Shown here: positions 32,098 to 43,315 of the stretch, one piece after another
Numbering within the stretch: the stretch's first letter is position 1
Layout of the letters: the number at the start of each line of letters is the position of its first letter
From: Deltaproteobacteria bacterium
GTDB taxonomy: Bacteria > Desulfobacterota > Desulfobacteria > Desulfobacterales > B30-G6
Assembly: GCA_022340465.1 (NCBI GenBank)
Contig: JAJDNW010000087.1
Location: forward strand, 1 to 64,000
Direction: 5' to 3'
DNA: 64,000 bases
Notes under the pieces: generated by a model
What the model was told of the DNA's origin: nothing
Seen by the model: the letters and a program-made list of their open reading frames with translations, nothing else
Databases searched by the model: none
Translations under genes and position numbers: made by a program

Positions 32098-33576
32098 GTG
32101 GCTGAAATCATTCTCTCCATAGACCAGGGCACCACGGGAACGACCGTCGTTCTTATGGACCGGGAGCTCAATGTCCGGGCACAGGGATACCGTGAATTCA
32201 GACAGATATATCCGCAGCCGGGTTGGGTCGAACACAATCCAGACGATATTTGGGAATCCGTTCTCGGGGCCATACGGGCGGCATTTTCAAACGGAACGGT
32301 TTCACCGGACGACATCGGGGCGATAGGTATCACCAACCAGCGTGAAACCAACCTGTTCTGGGATGCCGCCAGCGGCAGGGGCTGCCACAATGCCATTGTC
32401 TGGCAGTGTCGGCGCACCAGCGATATCTGTGACGAGCTGCGGCGCAAAGGACACGAAACGCTTTTTCAGCAACGCACCGGACTGCTGCTGGACCCCTACT
32501 TCAGCGGGACCAAATTGAAGTGGCAGCTGGATCACGTACCGGGGTTGCGGGAGCAGGCGGAAGCCGGGAAGGTCAGAGCCGGGACCATCGACACCTATCT
32601 GGTTTGGAAATTAACCGGCGGCCGGGCCCATGTCACCGATGCCACCAACGCCTCCCGGACCCTGTTGATGGATCTTAAAGCCGTTACGTGGGACGATGAA
32701 CTCTGCGCCCTTCTGGATATTCCCCAAAAGGTGCTTCCGGAAATCAGGGGGAACGCCGAGGTCTACGGCCGTACGAAGGGCGTACCCGGTCTGCCCGACG
32801 GGATTCCCATCTGCGGCATGGCCGGCGACCAGCACGCGGCGCTTTTTGGTCAGACCTGTTTTCAGACGGGCGAAGCCAAATGCACTTTCGGGACCGGGGC
32901 TTTTCTTCTCATGAATACGGGAGGCACACCGATTGCGAGCGAGAATCGACTACTGACAACCGTTGCCTGGCGCATTGGGGGCAAAACCACTTACGCCCTC
33001 GAGGGGTCGGCTTTCATAGCCGGGGCCGCCGTCCAGTGGGTGCGGGACGGCTTAAAGCTTGTCGAGAGCGCTTCACGGATAGAAGCGTTGGCGGAGCAGG
33101 TGCCGGACACGGGCGGCGTCACCGTCGTGCCCGCCTTTGTAGGCCTCGGCGCGCCGCATTGGCGCAGCGATGCACGCGGCGTGATAACGGGCCTGACCCT
33201 GGGAACGCGCGGGGCACATCTCGCCAGGGCCACGCTGGAAGGCATCGCCCTGCAGAATGTCGACATCCTGAAGGCCATGACAGCCGACAGCGGCAGGCAA
33301 CTGTTGCGGCTGAAGGTTGACGGCGGCGCGAGCGCCAACAACCTGCTCATGCAGATGCAGGCGGATTTTCTGGGATGCAGCATCGTGCGGCCGCAAATTG
33401 TGGAAACCACGGCGCTGGGGGCGGCCCTCCTGGCAGGGTTGGGGGCAGGGATGTGGCCCGGTCTGGAGGATATCGCCGGTGTGTGGAAAGAGGACCGGAC
33501 CTTTACCCCCGCAATGTCCGCAGAGGAACGTGCGTCCGTGCTGGAGAGGTGGCGGCGGGCGGTGGAAAAGGCTTAG
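32098..33576 (+). CDS. glpK: Glycerol kinase
   Basis: 492 aa with GTG start after AAAGGAG. FGGY kinase motifs: SIDQGTTGTTVVLMDR (ATP phosphate loop), GITNQRET (glycerol site), GDQHAALFGQ and KVDGGASANN. It phosphorylates glycerol to glycerol 3-phosphate. No glpF or glpD is adjacent. Residues are complete and length is standard (about 495-500). The next 45-nt motif copy begins only 16 nt after its stop. Confidence 0.96.
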   Translation: MAEIILSIDQGTTGTTVVLMDRELNVRAQGYREFRQIYPQPGWVEHNPDDIWESVLGAIRAAFSNGTVSPDDIGAIGITNQRETNLFWDAASGRGCHNAIVWQCRRTSDICDELRRKGHETLFQQRTGLLLDPYFSGTKLKWQLDHVPGLREQAEAGKVRAGTIDTYLVWKLTGGRAHVTDATNASRTLLMDLKAVTWDDELCALLDIPQKVLPEIRGNAEVYGRTKGVPGLPDGIPICGMAGDQHAALFGQTCFQTGEAKCTFGTGAFLLMNTGGTPIASENRLLTTVAWRIGGKTTYALEGSAFIAGAAVQWVRDGLKLVESASRIEALAEQVPDTGGVTVVPAFVGLGAPHWRSDARGVITGLTLGTRGAHLARATLEGIALQNVDILKAMTADSGRQLLRLKVDGGASANNLLMQMQADFLGCSIVRPQIVETTALGAALLAGLGAGMWPGLEDIAGVWKEDRTFTPAMSAEERASVLERWRRAVEKA

Positions 33577-33592
33577 CTTCAGAACACCTCCT

Positions 33593-33637
33593 TCCAGGGT
33601 GAAACCGGTGCCGGTCCCTACGGACCCGGGTATCTAC
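33593..33637 (+). repeat. 45-nt structured motif, copy 2
   Basis: Differs from copy 1 at five positions. The stem shifts to CCGG-TCC / GGA-CCCGG with a one-base bulge, so pairing is retained despite changes in the arms. It lies 110 nt before the S24 regulator and 16 nt after glpK. Confidence 0.75.
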
Positions 33638-33656
33638 GCTGATTCGCGAAAAAACT

Positions 33657-33675
33657 GTTGCAAAAAATTTGCGAC
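33657..33675 (+). promoter_or_regulatory. Candidate operator upstream of the S24 regulator
   Basis: GTTGCAAA-AAA-TTTGCGAC is an imperfect palindrome (7 of 8 pairs). A second one, TGTT-N10-AACA, is at about 33678-33695. Both lie in the AT-rich leader before the regulator, as expected of an autorepressed gene. Not proven. Confidence 0.35.
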
Positions 33676-33747
33676 TGTGTTAACTAAATTGAACATCGCG
33701 TGCCGGAAACATCAGCGGACGTTAACACTTGCCTGAAGGGAAGGTTC

Positions 33748-34401
33748 ATGAGCGCAAATGAATTCGACGGTATTATAAAACGGATCTTCGAAGCCGCCGG
33801 GATCGAATCCCAGACCGACCTCGCCAGAATTTTGAAGGTCAATCGGTCCGCCGTTACCCAGGCACGGAAAAAAGGCGCCGTTCCCGAACGCTGGCTGCTG
33901 CGGTTGTACCGCGCCTACGGCATCAATCCGGAGTGGCTTGAAACCGGCCGGGGGCACACGTTTGTCGGTCGGCAAACGGAAGAGGCGTCGGCCTTTAAAA
34001 AAATTCCCAAAGTGTCGGCGCGTCTGTGCGCAGGCAACGGGTCTTTCGAGGTGGGAGGGGACGTTCAAAACTACTACGCGTTCCGCAGGGCATGGCTGAA
34101 CAAAAGGGGGGCATCCGACGAGATGGTGCTTTTAGATATTTTCGGCAACTCCATGGAACCTGAGATGCACGACGGAGACACGGTCCTGATCGACCAAAGC
34201 CAGAAAAATATTCTGGCCGGCGCCGTTTTTGCGCTCGGCATCGAGGATACGATCATGGTCAAAAGGGTGGAGAAACACCCCAACAAACTTGTGCTGCGCA
34301 GCGACAACAAGGACTATGCCCCGATCTATCTCGAGGGAGACGAGGCGGACCAGGTCAGGATTCTGGGCAAGGTGATCTGGGTCTGCCGCGAAATTCGCTA
34401 A
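33748..34401 (+). CDS. CI/LexA-like transcriptional regulator with S24 peptidase domain
   Basis: 217 aa with RBS GAAGGG. N-terminal phage-CI-type helix-turn-helix (QTDLARILKVNRSAVTQARKKG, residues about 22-43). C-terminal S24 domain: Ser135 in IFGNSMEPE and Lys172 in MVKRVEK form the catalytic dyad; a candidate self-cleavage site is Ala-Gly near residue 94. Such repressors are inactivated by RecA-stimulated self-cleavage or act as stress regulators. No prophage genes are adjacent. Two small genes follow at once, so they are its likely targets. Confidence 0.88.
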   Translation: MSANEFDGIIKRIFEAAGIESQTDLARILKVNRSAVTQARKKGAVPERWLLRLYRAYGINPEWLETGRGHTFVGRQTEEASAFKKIPKVSARLCAGNGSFEVGGDVQNYYAFRRAWLNKRGASDEMVLLDIFGNSMEPEMHDGDTVLIDQSQKNILAGAVFALGIEDTIMVKRVEKHPNKLVLRSDNKDYAPIYLEGDEADQVRILGKVIWVCREIR

Positions 34402-34493
34402 AAAATTTATCGTGGTTGTATATAAAACTAAACATGAAGCGCAATAAAATTAACACGAACGTAGGTGAAGTGAACACCGAAAGGAGAGACCGT

Positions 34494-34589
34494 ATGCAAG
34501 CCATGTTGATCAAAGTGATGTGTGACTGCGTGTTCATGTCCGCGCTGGTCGTTATTGCCGGGCTGGCCACATTGGCGGTGGGGATGTAA
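34494..34589 (+). CDS. 31-aa hydrophobic peptide
   Basis: Begins MQAMLIKVMCDCVFMSALV, with strong RBS AAAGGAG. A single TM helix of about 20 residues with a CDC motif in the N-terminal part. It is 92 nt after the S24 regulator and 30 nt before the next small gene. Size and membrane character recall small toxic or signalling peptides such as LexA-controlled TisB, but there is no sequence similarity that I can see. The strong RBS is the main evidence that it is real. Confidence 0.55.
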   Translation: MQAMLIKVMCDCVFMSALVVIAGLATLAVGM

Positions 34590-34619
34590 TTTTTTAATCA
34601 ACAAATGAAAGGAGAACAA

Positions 34620-34784
34620 ATGGCCGGGAAAATGATTGAATGCCCAAGGGATACCCAAACGAAGTACAACCGTGACGTGTGTGAAAACGTGTTTCGCAAG
34701 GGCGACATTCGTGTGTGGTGCAAGACCTGTGAAGCGTTCGGCGGAAAAGGGGAAAATACCGCGCAGGGGGATACGGCCGCCTAG
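34620..34784 (+). CDS. 54-aa four-cysteine protein
   Basis: RBS AAAGGAG directly upstream. Cys spacing is C-x12-C-x12-C-x2-C (CPRD, DVCEN, WCKTCE), compatible with a small zinc knuckle as in Com-like phage translation factors; the resemblance is only general. Highly charged, with a Gly/Thr-rich tail. It pairs with the 31-aa peptide as a mini operon behind the S24 regulator. It could be an RNA- or DNA-binding partner; unproven. Confidence 0.6.
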   Translation: MAGKMIECPRDTQTKYNRDVCENVFRKGDIRVWCKTCEAFGGKGENTAQGDTAA

Positions 34785-34799
34785 TGCCGTCTTCAAGGT

Positions 34800-34900
34800 T
34801 GCAACGCAACATAGTTCATTGGGTTAGCGGGTTTGTTGGGTTATTGAGTTAGCAGGTGTAGCTCAACGAACCCGACGAACGCAATAACTCGGCACCCCTA
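34800..34900. repeat. Degenerate word array with opposed halves
   Basis: GTTAGCGGGTTTGTTGGGTTATTGAGTT on one side and the near-complementary AACGAACCCGACGAACGCAATAACTC on the other. It separates two convergent genes and can fold as a long imperfect hairpin. Confidence 0.45.
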
Positions 34901-34906
34901 TCCGCT

Positions 34907-36073
34907 TTAAACGCCGTTGATTTCCATGGCGATGTTGCAGTAGGTTTCCACGCCGGTCAGGAGGATCTCTTCGTTGAACCGGAATTCCGGATTGTGAACC
35001 CCCGCACATCCCTCGTATCCGGCACCGAGGGCAAAGTAGCAGCCCGGGGCCTTTTGGAGAAAGAAAGCGAAATCCTCCCCTCCCGTCGTTTTCAGAGGCG
35101 TTACGATATGTTCCGCTCCCACGACGCGTTCCGCGCATTTTTTTACCAGAGCGGCGGCGGCGGCATCGTTGACGGTCACCGGATAACCGGGGGAGTAGGT
35201 CAGTTCGAAGTCGGCCCCCATGGAAGCACACACACCGCCGACGATTCTTCTCATGGTGGCTTCCCATGCATTCCACACGTCGGTGTCGAAGGTGCGGGTG
35301 GTGCCGCTCAGGGACGCCTCTCCGGGTATGATGTTGAATGCCGTTCCGGCGTTGAAGGTGCCGACCGTCACCACGGTGGGCTTCAGGGGGTCGGACTGGC
35401 GGCTGACGATACGCTGCAGGGCATTGACCACCTGCGTCCCCACCTCTAGCGCATCCACACAGTGGTGCGGCTGGGCGCCGTGCCCCCCTCTGCCCAGGAT
35501 TTTGATGTCGAAACGGTCCATGGCGGCCATGAAAGGCCCGGGCAGAATCCCCACCGTTCCCTCCGGGATGTCGGGCCAGACGTGACAGCCAAAAACATAG
35601 TCGACCGACGGGTTGTTCATGACCCCGGCCTCGATCATGGGTTTGGCCCCTCCCGGCCCTTCTTCGGCGGGCTGGAACAGAAACTTGATACAGCCGCACA
35701 ACTGTGGGCGCAGGCCGTCCAATACCGCCGCCGCTCCCAGCACCATCGCCATGTGGGCGTCGTGTCCGCAAGCGTGCATGACCCCCGCATGCGTCGACGC
35801 ATAGGGAAGTCCGGTTGCCTCTGAGATAGGGAGCGCATCCATGTCCGCTCTGAAGAGCGTCGTCGGCCCGGGCTTTCCCGTGTCCATCAGGGCAACGATC
35901 CCGAAAGAGGCGATGCCTGACGCCGTCACGACGTCAATGGCGTCCAAGCGCTTCAACAGGTACTGTGCCGTCTTTTCTTCCGCGAAGGCCGTTTCCGGAA
36001 TACGGTGCAGGTCACGCCTCGCTTCTACAATAAACGTTTTTTTCGCCTCGACACTTGCATGAATATCGATCAT
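34907..36073 (-). CDS. M20-family amidohydrolase (hippurate hydrolase-like)
   Basis: 388 aa from ATG 36073, which has AAGGAAAAG upstream; a TTG further out at 36091 is less likely. Metal ligands are visible in HACGHDAHMAM and in EEGPGGAKPMIEAG, with a further His in GCHVWPD and a Glu in TTGGEDFAFF. It is an AmhX/HipO-type peptidase that removes acyl groups from N-acyl amino acids. Cytoplasmic, no signal peptide. It diverges from the Cys-rich gene at 36273. Confidence 0.9.
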   Translation of the reverse strand: MIDIHASVEAKKTFIVEARRDLHRIPETAFAEEKTAQYLLKRLDAIDVVTASGIASFGIVALMDTGKPGPTTLFRADMDALPISEATGLPYASTHAGVMHACGHDAHMAMVLGAAAVLDGLRPQLCGCIKFLFQPAEEGPGGAKPMIEAGVMNNPSVDYVFGCHVWPDIPEGTVGILPGPFMAAMDRFDIKILGRGGHGAQPHHCVDALEVGTQVVNALQRIVSRQSDPLKPTVVTVGTFNAGTAFNIIPGEASLSGTTRTFDTDVWNAWEATMRRIVGGVCASMGADFELTYSPGYPVTVNDAAAAALVKKCAERVVGAEHIVTPLKTTGGEDFAFFLQKAPGCYFALGAGYEGCAGVHNPEFRFNEEILLTGVETYCNIAMEINGV

Positions 36074-40604: not shown

Positions 40605-41894
40605 TTGCATAAAAACACGCCGCCACTGTTTTTGGCCGGATCGATGTGGGGTCTGGGAGCACTGTTGTATTTGATGGCCTTTTTCCACCGCGTGGCGCCC
40701 GCGGTCATCACGACGGAACTCATGCAGGCTTTCGACATCAATGCGGCCGTTCTCGGCAACCTGTCCGCCTTTTATTTCTACAGCTACGTGGCCATGCAGA
40801 TCCCTACGGGCATCCTCGCCGACACATGGGGGCCCCGGCGCTTGCTGGCCGGCGGTGCGTTTGTCGCCGGCGTCGGGGCCGCCATATTCGGGCTGGCGCC
40901 CAGCTTGATGTGGGCCGGCGTCGGCAGACTGCTTATCGGCGGCTCCGTGGCCGTCGCCTGGGTCGCAATTTTGAAGCTTACCAGCAGCTGGTTCCCGGCG
41001 CGTCATTATGCCACGCTGTCGGGCGTCGCACTGATGGTGGGGATCGTCGGCGCGGTATCGGCCGGGACGCCGCTGCGCTGGCTCGTGAACCTTTTGGGAT
41101 GGCGCAGCGGCATCATCCTTTCGTCGGTGATTTTGTTTGCCGTGGCCGCTCTGATATGGATATTTGTCAGGGATTATCCGCACGAAAAAGGTTTCGACGA
41201 TTACCTGGAAGCCGACAGCGGCCGGCAAAGGCCGACCTTCCGGGAAATCCTGCAAGGCATTCCGGAAGTCTTGCGCTACCGCAATGTGCTGCTTCTTTTC
41301 ATTATCCCCGCCGGTATCCTGGGAAGCGTGCTTACCTTTTCCGGCTTGTGGGGGGTCCCCTTCCTGACAGCCCGCTACGGTCTGTCGAAGCCTCACGCCG
41401 CCGCCCTGACTTCCACCCTAATGGTGGCCATGGCAATCGGGGGGCCGGTGTCGGGGTGGCTCTCCGACCGCATCGGCAGGCGAAAGCCGCTCTATCTGGC
41501 GATGACGGCCACGGCCTTCGTCGGTTGGATGTTGATCACCTATGCCCGCGGCACCTCCGTATTCAGCCTCCTGGTGCTGCTGATTGTTACCGGATTCAGC
41601 TCCGGTGTGGCGGTGCTCAGTTTCGTTTTTGCCAAGGAGACGGTACCGCCTGCCCTGGCGGGAACGGTTTCCGGCGTTGTCAATACCGGCCTCATGACCG
41701 GACCGATGGTGCTGCAGCCTGCGGTCGGCTGGGTTCTCGACACCCGTTGGGAAGGGGCGCTGCAGCAGGGGGTGAGGGTGTACGGGTTGCGGTCGTTTCA
41801 AGCCGGTTTCACCCTCATGCTTTGCTGGATCGCCCTGTCACTGCTGCTACTGTTGTTTACACGGGAAACGTATTGCCGGCAGAATGCGAGTTGA
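40605..41894 (+). CDS. MFS transporter
   Basis: 429 aa with TTG start at 40605 preceded by a G-rich RBS; this start is supported because the first TM helix begins at residue 6. About 12 helices. The loop 2-3 motif is GILADTWGPRRLLAGG and the loop 8-9 equivalent SDRIGRRKPLYL, typical of MFS. A long interior segment after the sixth helix includes RDYPHEKGFDDY. Substrate unknown. It ends 14 nt before the acyl-CoA synthetase gene. Confidence 0.88.
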   Translation: MHKNTPPLFLAGSMWGLGALLYLMAFFHRVAPAVITTELMQAFDINAAVLGNLSAFYFYSYVAMQIPTGILADTWGPRRLLAGGAFVAGVGAAIFGLAPSLMWAGVGRLLIGGSVAVAWVAILKLTSSWFPARHYATLSGVALMVGIVGAVSAGTPLRWLVNLLGWRSGIILSSVILFAVAALIWIFVRDYPHEKGFDDYLEADSGRQRPTFREILQGIPEVLRYRNVLLLFIIPAGILGSVLTFSGLWGVPFLTARYGLSKPHAAALTSTLMVAMAIGGPVSGWLSDRIGRRKPLYLAMTATAFVGWMLITYARGTSVFSLLVLLIVTGFSSGVAVLSFVFAKETVPPALAGTVSGVVNTGLMTGPMVLQPAVGWVLDTRWEGALQQGVRVYGLRSFQAGFTLMLCWIALSLLLLLFTRETYCRQNAS

Positions 41895-41908
41895 CGGGAG
41901 AAGATACG

Positions 41909-43315
41909 ATGAAACCAAGACAAAACGCCAACGATACCGAACCCGGGGCCGCCGGGGCTCTCGGACGCGCTTTGCACCCACGGGCGGTCGCCGTCGTCGG
42001 TGCCTCCTCCCGGGAAAACAACCTGGGCCACTGGATCCTGCAGTCCTTGATCAGCGGCGGATTTCCCGGTGCGATTTACCCGGTGAACCCCAAAGGCGGG
42101 AATTTGCTCGGACTGGATGTGATCACCGATGTCGAACGCCTGCCGGAACCGGTGGATCTCGGCATTGTGGCCGTCCCCGGGAACAGGGTGCCGGAGACGC
42201 TGGAAACCCTGGGCAGAAAAGGTGTGGCCTGCGCGGCCGTCATCGCCGGAGGGTTTGCCGAAACAGGCCCGGAGGGAAGGGCTCTCCAGGGGGAACTCCT
42301 GCGGGTCGCCCGACAGGCCGGGGTCCGGCTCATCGGGCCCAATACCATCGGAATCATCGATGTCCGGTCCAGACTGAACGCTTCTTTTTCCTCGGATATG
42401 GGCGGATCCGAACCGGGCGGTATCGGTGTCGTGTCCCAGAGCGGGTCTGTTTGCGAGACCTTGTATTTCAGGTGCCTGGAGAGGGGGGGTGGATTTTCCA
42501 CGCTGATTGCCGCGGGGAACGAGGCGGACCTGGATCTGTGCGACTATCTGGAATATTTACTGCGCGACCCGGACACCGCGGTCGTGGCCATGTATGTGGA
42601 GCAGATTCGCCGGCCACGGCGTTTTTTTCAGCTGCTCAAGGATCGTGAGGGGAAAAAACCGGTGGTGATGTTCCGCACCGGAAGGACGCCCCGGGGCAGG
42701 GAGGCGGCCTTTTCCCACACCGGTGCCATGGCCGGCAGCGATGCCGTCCTGAGCGGGCTTTGCCGGCAGGTGGGCGTCGTGGAGGCGCGTTCCTACGGAG
42801 ATCTCATCGACGGTACCATGGCCTTTACCTGCGGCCGGCGCCCCCGGGGCGGGCGTTTGGCCGTGGTCACCGGCCCGGGCGCACCGGGCGTGGCCGCCTG
42901 TGACGCCGCATTGGAAGCCGGTTTGGAGATGGCGACTTTGGGCAATGGCACTGCCGAGAAGTTGTCGCGCATTCTGCCGCCCATTGCCTCGTGGCGCAAT
43001 CCCGTCGATATGACCGGCAGCGCCGCCACCAATCCGGAGCTTGTCTGGCGGACCATCGAAACCGTCCTGGCGGACGACTCGGTGGACGGCCTGATTGTGA
43101 TCGTCGGGGCGCTCCAGACGACGCAGGGACTGGACGACATCATCCGGGTGGTGGTGTCGCAACCCAAGCCGGTCTTTGCGGTTACGGTCGGGTCCCTGTC
43201 AAAAAATGCCGAAAACCGCGCCATTGTTGAACGGTTGGGGCAACACAGGGTGCCGTGTTTTCTCACCCCCGAGAGGGCCGTGAGGGCCTTTCAATTGCTG
43301 GCCGTGCGCTGTTGA
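41909..43315 (+). CDS. NDP-forming acyl-CoA synthetase, alpha-type subunit
   Basis: 468 aa, RBS GGGAGAAG. CoA-binding Rossmann domain (VAVVGASSRENNLGHWIL), then two succinyl-CoA ligase-like flavodoxin domains with the phospho-His in FSHTGAMAGSD. No ATP-grasp domain follows, so this is the alpha half of an ADP-forming acetate/acyl-CoA ligase; the beta subunit must be encoded elsewhere. It could conserve energy by substrate-level phosphorylation or activate an acid brought in by the upstream transporter. Confidence 0.88.
   Translation: MKPRQNANDTEPGAAGALGRALHPRAVAVVGASSRENNLGHWILQSLISGGFPGAIYPVNPKGGNLLGLDVITDVERLPEPVDLGIVAVPGNRVPETLETLGRKGVACAAVIAGGFAETGPEGRALQGELLRVARQAGVRLIGPNTIGIIDVRSRLNASFSSDMGGSEPGGIGVVSQSGSVCETLYFRCLERGGGFSTLIAAGNEADLDLCDYLEYLLRDPDTAVVAMYVEQIRRPRRFFQLLKDREGKKPVVMFRTGRTPRGREAAFSHTGAMAGSDAVLSGLCRQVGVVEARSYGDLIDGTMAFTCGRRPRGGRLAVVTGPGAPGVAACDAALEAGLEMATLGNGTAEKLSRILPPIASWRNPVDMTGSAATNPELVWRTIETVLADDSVDGLIVIVGALQTTQGLDDIIRVVVSQPKPVFAVTVGSLSKNAENRAIVERLGQHRVPCFLTPERAVRAFQLLAVRC

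Follow-up and report, generated by a model that had tools for sequence, protein, structure and literature searches.

Among published designs, the closest that was found is the group of non-canonical LexA proteins in Bacteroidetes (PMC8565304), which are reported to control SOS genes in a phylum presumed to be without LexA. The regulator considered here resembles them in that a CI-type N-terminal domain is joined to an S24 domain and in that a gene of probable phage origin is owned by the host; however, it appears to act locally and stands beside a true LexA. With LexA itself (TIGR00498), the regulator has in common the S24 domain, the Ala-Gly cleavage pair and the Ser/Lys dyad, and with phage CI (phrog_4; PDB 2fjr, phage 186) it shares the HTH and S24 folds. 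Unlike phage CI, it is chromosomal, is mostly present in a single copy and has its own operator and small genes.

The second point of comparison is the TisB peptide, which is amphipathic with a net charge of +1 and has essential residues at K12 and Q19 (PMC11449926). The 31-aa peptide of the present locus (family 'mem1') is, like TisB and DinQ, a tiny membrane peptide that is plausibly induced by damage. In contrast to them, its helix is uncharged with an acidic edge, a dedicated repressor is its neighbour, and a known antisense RNA was not found.

The locus described here appears to be a switch of the CI/LexA type that belongs to the host and has micro-proteins as its dedicated output. It is shared by many related bacteria; no published account of the cassette was found in the open-access literature. 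A cleavable switch of this type is tied here to unnamed but conserved micro-protein families in bacteria of the sulfate-reducing type, which suggests that default gene calling can overlook the genes that a widespread regulator controls. Here a phage-type switch owned by the host seems to be paired with a small membrane protein of its own, which offers a compact case that can be tested.

The cassette, its surroundings and its relatives

The window is the whole stretch of DNA that was analysed, 64,000 nucleotides of contig C87 in a draft genome of 4.39 Mb. The features of the cassette are given below.

33658..33663, + strand: TTGCAA, located 20 bp ahead of the operator and probably the -35 box of the regulator
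33678..33695, no strand: upstream operator candidate TGTTAACTAAATTGAACA, a perfect TGTT-N10-AACA and conserved upstream palindrome
33748..34401, + strand: repressor of 217 aa with a CI-type HTH and an S24 peptidase domain, cleavage pair A95-G96, dyad S135/K172
34417..34434, no strand: downstream operator candidate TGTATATAAAACTAAACA, with one mismatch and a PWM score of 14.6, where intragenic controls reach at most 7.3
34480..34488, + strand: Shine-Dalgarno sequence AAAGGAGAG of ORF2
34494..34589, + strand: ORF2, single-pass membrane peptide of 31 aa (family 'mem1')
34608..34614, + strand: Shine-Dalgarno sequence AAAGGAG of ORF3
34620..34784, + strand: ORF3, four-Cys protein of 54 aa (family 'cys'), likely zinc-binding

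The regulator, ORF2 and ORF3 all lie on one strand, and both small ORFs are preceded by a clear Shine-Dalgarno sequence. The 5' neighbour is an FGGY kinase of the GlpK type, and on the 3' side a convergent M20 peptidase is followed by CinA. Ten flanking ORFs were compared with Pfam; eight of them gave PGK, VTT, the FGGY kinase, the M20 peptidase, CinA, two hydrolases and an amidohydrolase, one gave DUF3109 below the threshold, and one had no match. No phage family occurs among these ten ORFs and prophage signs were not seen, in line with the initial annotation, which had noted the absence of a nearby prophage.

The regulator matches PF00717 (6e-22, 78 bits, cut-off 23.3) and PF07022 (1.1e-7, 32.5 bits, cut-off 22), both above the gathering score. 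It is a member of the CI/S24 repressor superfamily, in which both domains, the Ser/Lys dyad and the Ala-Gly pair are present. The initial annotation had described an S24 regulator with Ser135/Lys172 and a CI-like HTH, and its coordinates and residues are correct. The best structural match of the regulator is PDB 2fjr, the CI of phage 186, for which the query was a low-confidence model; since the AlphaFold models are weak (pLDDT of 59.9 for the regulator and 65.9 for ORF3), the fold search was taken as supportive at most. Sequence searches of the PDB gave one match with E of 4.6 and otherwise none, and PADLOC gave a single match with E of 0.032.

Close orthologues, with 54-82% identity, were found in 14 other genomes (58 searched, own genome included). 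With a 15-sequence profile at E<=1e-40, the regulator was found in 121 of the 389 genomes of the order, which is probably Desulfobacterales, and in 52 of its 150 genera; 117 of the 121 positive genomes have a single match, and none was found in the other 268 genomes at this threshold. The name of the order is derived from 80 named loci, whose names include Desulfobacterales, Desulfobacteraceae, Desulfobacula and Desulfotignum, and of which many are given just as Deltaproteobacteria. In a phylum-wide sample, 17 of 345 genomes match the regulator, two of which (the own genome and G013) are within the order. Two loci outside the order (L368 and L369) have the regulator, operators on both sides and a gene of the com family, which is described below.

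A set of 118 loci was compiled from the 199 that were located, with one locus per distinct regulator C-terminus and without matches spanning fewer than 150 query residues. Ser135 and Lys172 are invariant in all 118 loci, and the Ala95-Gly96 cleavage pair is present in 115; the exceptions are Ala-Ala in L094 and Gly-Gly in the distant L017 and L029. L094 belongs to a sister genus of the window's, and in it ORF3 is present and mem1 gave no match.

The initial annotation had proposed that the three-gene order be sought in relatives. This order was found in L074 and L075, where the small ORFs are thus conserved, and the regulator is accompanied by a small hydrophobic protein (mem1, or the second family mem2 described below) in 79 of the 118 loci. 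The genes that flank the cassette in the window recur, among the loci compared, in L074 and L075 and to some extent in L094, but in no others, except for a large ORF at 40613-43312, which is present in six further loci. This distribution indicates that the conservation of the cassette does not depend on the genes around it.

A phylogeny of 101 regulator sequences, six of them viral, was calculated using FastTree. Families f1, f5, f8, f11, f14, f30 and f56 are monophyletic, 28 of the 31 members of f36 fall in one clade, and f22, f35, f24 and f59 are mixed. As judged from this tree, the inheritance of the regulator would be partly vertical, with clear exceptions.

Outside the group of the order, the relatives of the regulator are phage repressors, as given by the match to phrog_4 (1.4e-45), by a relative in Desulfovibrio phage ProddE that is 39% identical, and by 27 relatives in viral contigs, whose full-length identity is 43% at most. 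These relatives would suit a locus in which a captured CI is kept for superinfection immunity and the small genes are phage morons. However, the single match in nearly all positive genomes, its presence in about a third of the genera, the monophyly of seven families and near-monophyly of an eighth beside four mixed ones, and the phage-free flanking ORFs argue against such a remnant. In addition, none of the small families occurs in the examined stretches of the 27 viral relatives, and the word TGTT-N10-AACA occurs in only two of them. We regard a remnant of phage immunity as highly improbable, and a prophage remnant was set aside in view of the ten flanking ORFs and the comparison with the viral relatives. 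No confirmed relatives of mem1, cys, yhg (a further small family) or com were found in viral contigs. A mem2-like protein lies in viral contig L259 around 2237-2479, between genes that look by eye like those of a polymerase and a helicase; neither regulator nor operator was found in the 5.5 kb of L259 that was examined.

Candidate operators and the relation to LexA

The word TGTT-N10-AACA, whose half-site and spacing were picked after inspection of the k-mer enrichment and of the sequences, occurs in the 200-bp regions upstream of the regulator in 66 of 107 loci and downstream in 43 of 108, where loci with a regulator identity of 45% or less are excluded from all operator counts. It occurs in none of the 100 distal and 111 intragenic control stretches. 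When gaps from 0 to 25 were scanned, every gap other than 10 gave at most 5. With a PWM built from these sites, a score above the 99th percentile of the intragenic controls is reached upstream in 98 of 107 loci and downstream in 85 of 108, and 80 of 104 loci have such sites on both sides; because the PWM was trained on the regions that it scans, the spacing scan is the cleaner test. The candidate operators are conserved as sequence, and their binding by the repressor is presumed from this conservation.

Of 98 loci with an upstream site, 27 have the motif TTGCA at a distance of exactly 20 bp in front of it and 4 at 19 bp, and in 35 the motif lies inside the site. This placement indicates that the upstream operator overlaps the likely promoter of the regulator. 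A scan of 33560-34930 for consensus sigma-70 promoters gave none, and a terminator scan of the same interval gave 2, compared to 2.1 in shuffled sequences.

The regulator is distinct from LexA. It reaches 53.3 bits against TIGR00498 (52.6 bits in the search of the whole genome), where the cut-off is 110.95 and the match is to the C-terminal part alone, and the assignment of the regulator as LexA was rejected, as another gene in the own genome exceeds the cut-off. This separate LexA lies on another contig and scores 165 bits, and a LexA over the cut-off is present in 24 of 30 regulator genomes chosen by hand.

Across the whole window, 27 sites match the operator with at most one mismatch, compared to 17 expected, and the only perfect one is the site at 33678. 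In 29 regulator genomes chosen by hand, the strict operator pattern, which is insensitive in that it misses most cassette operators and leaves weak sites elsewhere possible, was found in 14 places, 8 at the cassette and 6 elsewhere; the reversed-pattern control gave 5 forward and 4 reverse matches in the same genomes. The sites away from the cassette are thus at about the control level, and the regulator looks local. No repair genes were seen by eye near these six sites among at most four of the longest ORFs at each. A second target in the own genome was also considered and rejected, because its single site, which has one mismatch, is outnumbered by the reversed control with 4 matches per strand and is ascribed to chance. 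This site lies in L214 around position 1500, just upstream of a gene that looks like the one for the carbon-starvation protein CstA.

The small proteins

Small families were determined by an iterative HMM search in up to 3 kb downstream of the regulator in the 118 loci, which gave mem1 in 36 loci, mem2 in 43, yhg (about 56 aa) in 31, com in 19 and the four-Cys family in 4. The family mem2 is another small hydrophobic protein, and com is a CxC...CxxC protein, of which some matches look decayed (L081, L083, L088 and L091). Representatives of the small families gave weak matches alone in Pfam and PHROG, with a best E of 0.0059.

ORF2 matches its family profile with E of 4.8e-10 when it is included in the profile and 4.7e-5 when it is left out. 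Its dN/dS is about 0.15 between the window and L074, and about 0.27 between the window and L075 (dN of 0.34, dS of 1.28). For ORF3, dN/dS is about 0.07 relative to L075 (dN of 0.13, dS of 1.98), and dS is saturated relative to L074 and L094. As judged from these ratios, ORF2 and ORF3 are under purifying selection. The initial annotation had proposed two tiny genes with strong ribosome-binding sites, and both are backed as genuine by family conservation and dN/dS.

In the mem1 peptides, no charged residue occurs after residue 12 in any of the 32 aligned segments of at least 25 residues (36 segments in all, four shorter ones being left out); in L079, an Arg stands just beyond the end of the aligned segment. 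Net charge was examined in 27 sequences out of the 36 loci, the copies in L095 and L097 being cut or decayed. Among these peptides, 26 are neutral or acidic, and every one of the 27 carries an acidic residue within positions 10-12.

An SOS-induced toxin of the TisB/DinQ type, with mem1 depolarising the membrane and halting growth after DNA damage, would agree with the size and hydrophobicity of the peptide, the cleavable repressor and the strong ribosome-binding sites. However, the charge pattern of mem1 is unlike that of TisB, which is amphipathic (PMC11449926); the sequence conservation of mem1 also counts against this reading, as does the search for known antisense RNA, in which the one Rfam match, located within the regulator gene, reaches 20 bits, far under the cut-off of 45. 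Such a toxin is therefore judged improbable. An amphipathic helix of the TisB type, with a face of Lys, Gln and Asp, was rejected for mem1 on the same grounds of charge. The initial annotation had compared the arrangement with SOS-controlled peptides such as TisB; its wiring and trigger are plausible at most, and the likeness in peptide chemistry fails. The chemistry of mem1 makes a TisB-like pore unlikely and would fit better with a bitopic helix that has a protein partner; the conserved Asp-Cys, Ser and Gly-Thr positions also suggest a membrane protein as partner.

In no locus of the 118 were mem1 and mem2 found together; mem2 stands in the place of mem1, and 44 of its 56 matches adjoin the regulator. 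A relation between the two families was not detectable by hhalign (probability 2.9%). Since they replace each other next to one and the same operator, they may act on a shared target in the membrane. Neither mem1 nor mem2 was recognised in 39 loci, four of which have just 63-338 bp of downstream sequence; in the other 35, with at least 600 bp, a small ORF that is preceded by a Shine-Dalgarno sequence and passes the hydrophobicity filter was found in only 3.

Across the order, mem1 was found in 38 of 379 genomes, and 31 of the 38 matches adjoin the regulator. The other seven genomes have no regulator match, which indicates that mem1 does not need the repressor switch, and in six of them mem1 directly follows yhg. 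In L347, L348, L349, L350, L352 and L353, where yhg is followed by mem1, the regulator and TGTT-N10-AACA are absent from the stretch. It is possible that yhg and mem1 form a two-gene unit of their own in the regulator-free genomes.

This gene order, together with the presence of mem1 in 26 of the 31 yhg loci beside the regulator, would be expected if a toxic mem1 were held by the preceding soluble yhg as in toxin-antitoxin pairs, with the repressor as an added control and the four-Cys protein replacing yhg in the window. However, mem1 occurs without yhg in the window, L074 and L075, the remaining 5 of the 31 yhg loci have no mem1 match, and the four-Cys protein is mostly found elsewhere in the genome. 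We consider an arrangement of this kind quite improbable.

In L176, L137, L181 and L182, mem1 homologues have a long N-terminal extension, and in three of these loci the likely mem1 start lies at most about 6 bases from the regulator stop. This proximity, with no downstream operator above the threshold in the four loci, suggests that these mem1 copies may be transcribed from the regulator promoter.

ORF3 has cysteines at positions 8, 21, 34 and 37, which do not vary among the 15 relatives that were aligned; the pattern fits a zinc site, and ORF3 is probably zinc-binding. Its sole Pfam match is CLIP1_ZNF, with 14.1 bits against a cut-off of 25. A Com-like protein, of the type of the zinc protein Com of phage Mu, was rejected for ORF3, as no Pfam match is above the cut-off. 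Comparison with the com-like family of the order gave an hhalign probability of 0.5%. The four-Cys family occurs in 27 of 379 genomes of the order, the window's included, and usually lies outside the cassette; the window's own family is the only one, among the loci examined, in which the cassette includes it. Wider flanks were examined for 13 loci away from the cassette; the eight from f22 all precede a CBS-domain-like gene and three of the 13 precede a DksA-like gene, both names being a reading of the sequence without a family search. The four-Cys relatives in L354-L360, L362-L364 and L366, which stand beside such genes, belong to an unnamed small Cys family of the order.

The trigger and the proposed mechanism

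Genes of the umuD/umuC/dinB type lie within 4 kb in 7 of the 118 loci (719 kb of flank), and none was found in 403 kb of distant flank. The loci are L092, L194, L100, L087, L097, L044 and L153; four dinB-like matches are about 25% identical to the query. The enrichment is modest, with a probability of about 0.04 on the assumption of independent loci, which the loci are not; L044 and L153 are apparently from one genus, so that the events are fewer than the loci. With the conserved self-cleavage residues, these neighbours make an SOS-type trigger plausible.

In the proposed mechanism, the repressor would bind two 18-bp palindromes, one overlapping its own promoter and the other in the interval from its stop codon to the small genes. 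It would thereby keep down its own synthesis and that of a short mRNA which encodes the 31-aa peptide together with the four-Cys protein. It would cleave itself at Ala95-Gly96 by means of Ser135/Lys172. The stimulus would most likely be RecA on damaged DNA, as with LexA and CI, a step suggested by the conserved residues and the umu/din neighbours, and cleavage would open both promoters. The mem1 peptide would then insert as a hydrophobic bitopic helix with the acidic residue at one edge, where it would bind a membrane protein partner rather than form a TisB-like pore. The four-Cys protein would be a small, probably zinc-binding companion that was placed under the repressor switch in the window's family.

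The same local switch may instead respond to a signal other than damage, such as redox, metal, membrane stress or an antirepressor acting on the S24 domain. The Cys-rich partners (cys and com), the missing Ala-Gly pair in L094 and an anaerobic life style were counted for such a signal, whereas the invariant catalytic residues and the umu/din neighbours count against it; we take it to be rather unlikely, though not to be neglected.

The reading that we prefer, and hold to be somewhat likely, is a self-contained cassette whose repressor would act locally, repress itself, probably respond to RecA and control tiny proteins, while LexA is present separately; binding, autorepression, RecA-stimulated cleavage and the function of the peptide are what we infer. 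Counted against this reading are the 39 loci in which neither mem1 nor mem2 was recognised, the 268 genomes of the order with no regulator match, the Ala-Ala pair and missing mem1 match of L094, the mem1 genes in regulator-free genomes, the mismatch in the downstream operator of the window, the lack of a consensus promoter match and the modest size of the umu/din enrichment. A wider reading, in which the repressor, the two operators, mem1 or mem2 and the yhg, com or cys companions constitute a second, LexA-independent DNA-damage circuit of Desulfobacterota with micro-proteins as its sole output, is tentative and on balance doubtful.

In three genomes of another family of the phylum (L373, L374 and L375), which are Desulfovibrio-like by guess, a regulator about 38% identical to that of the window is divergent to umuDC; these umuDC genes were named by eye and served as the umu/din queries.
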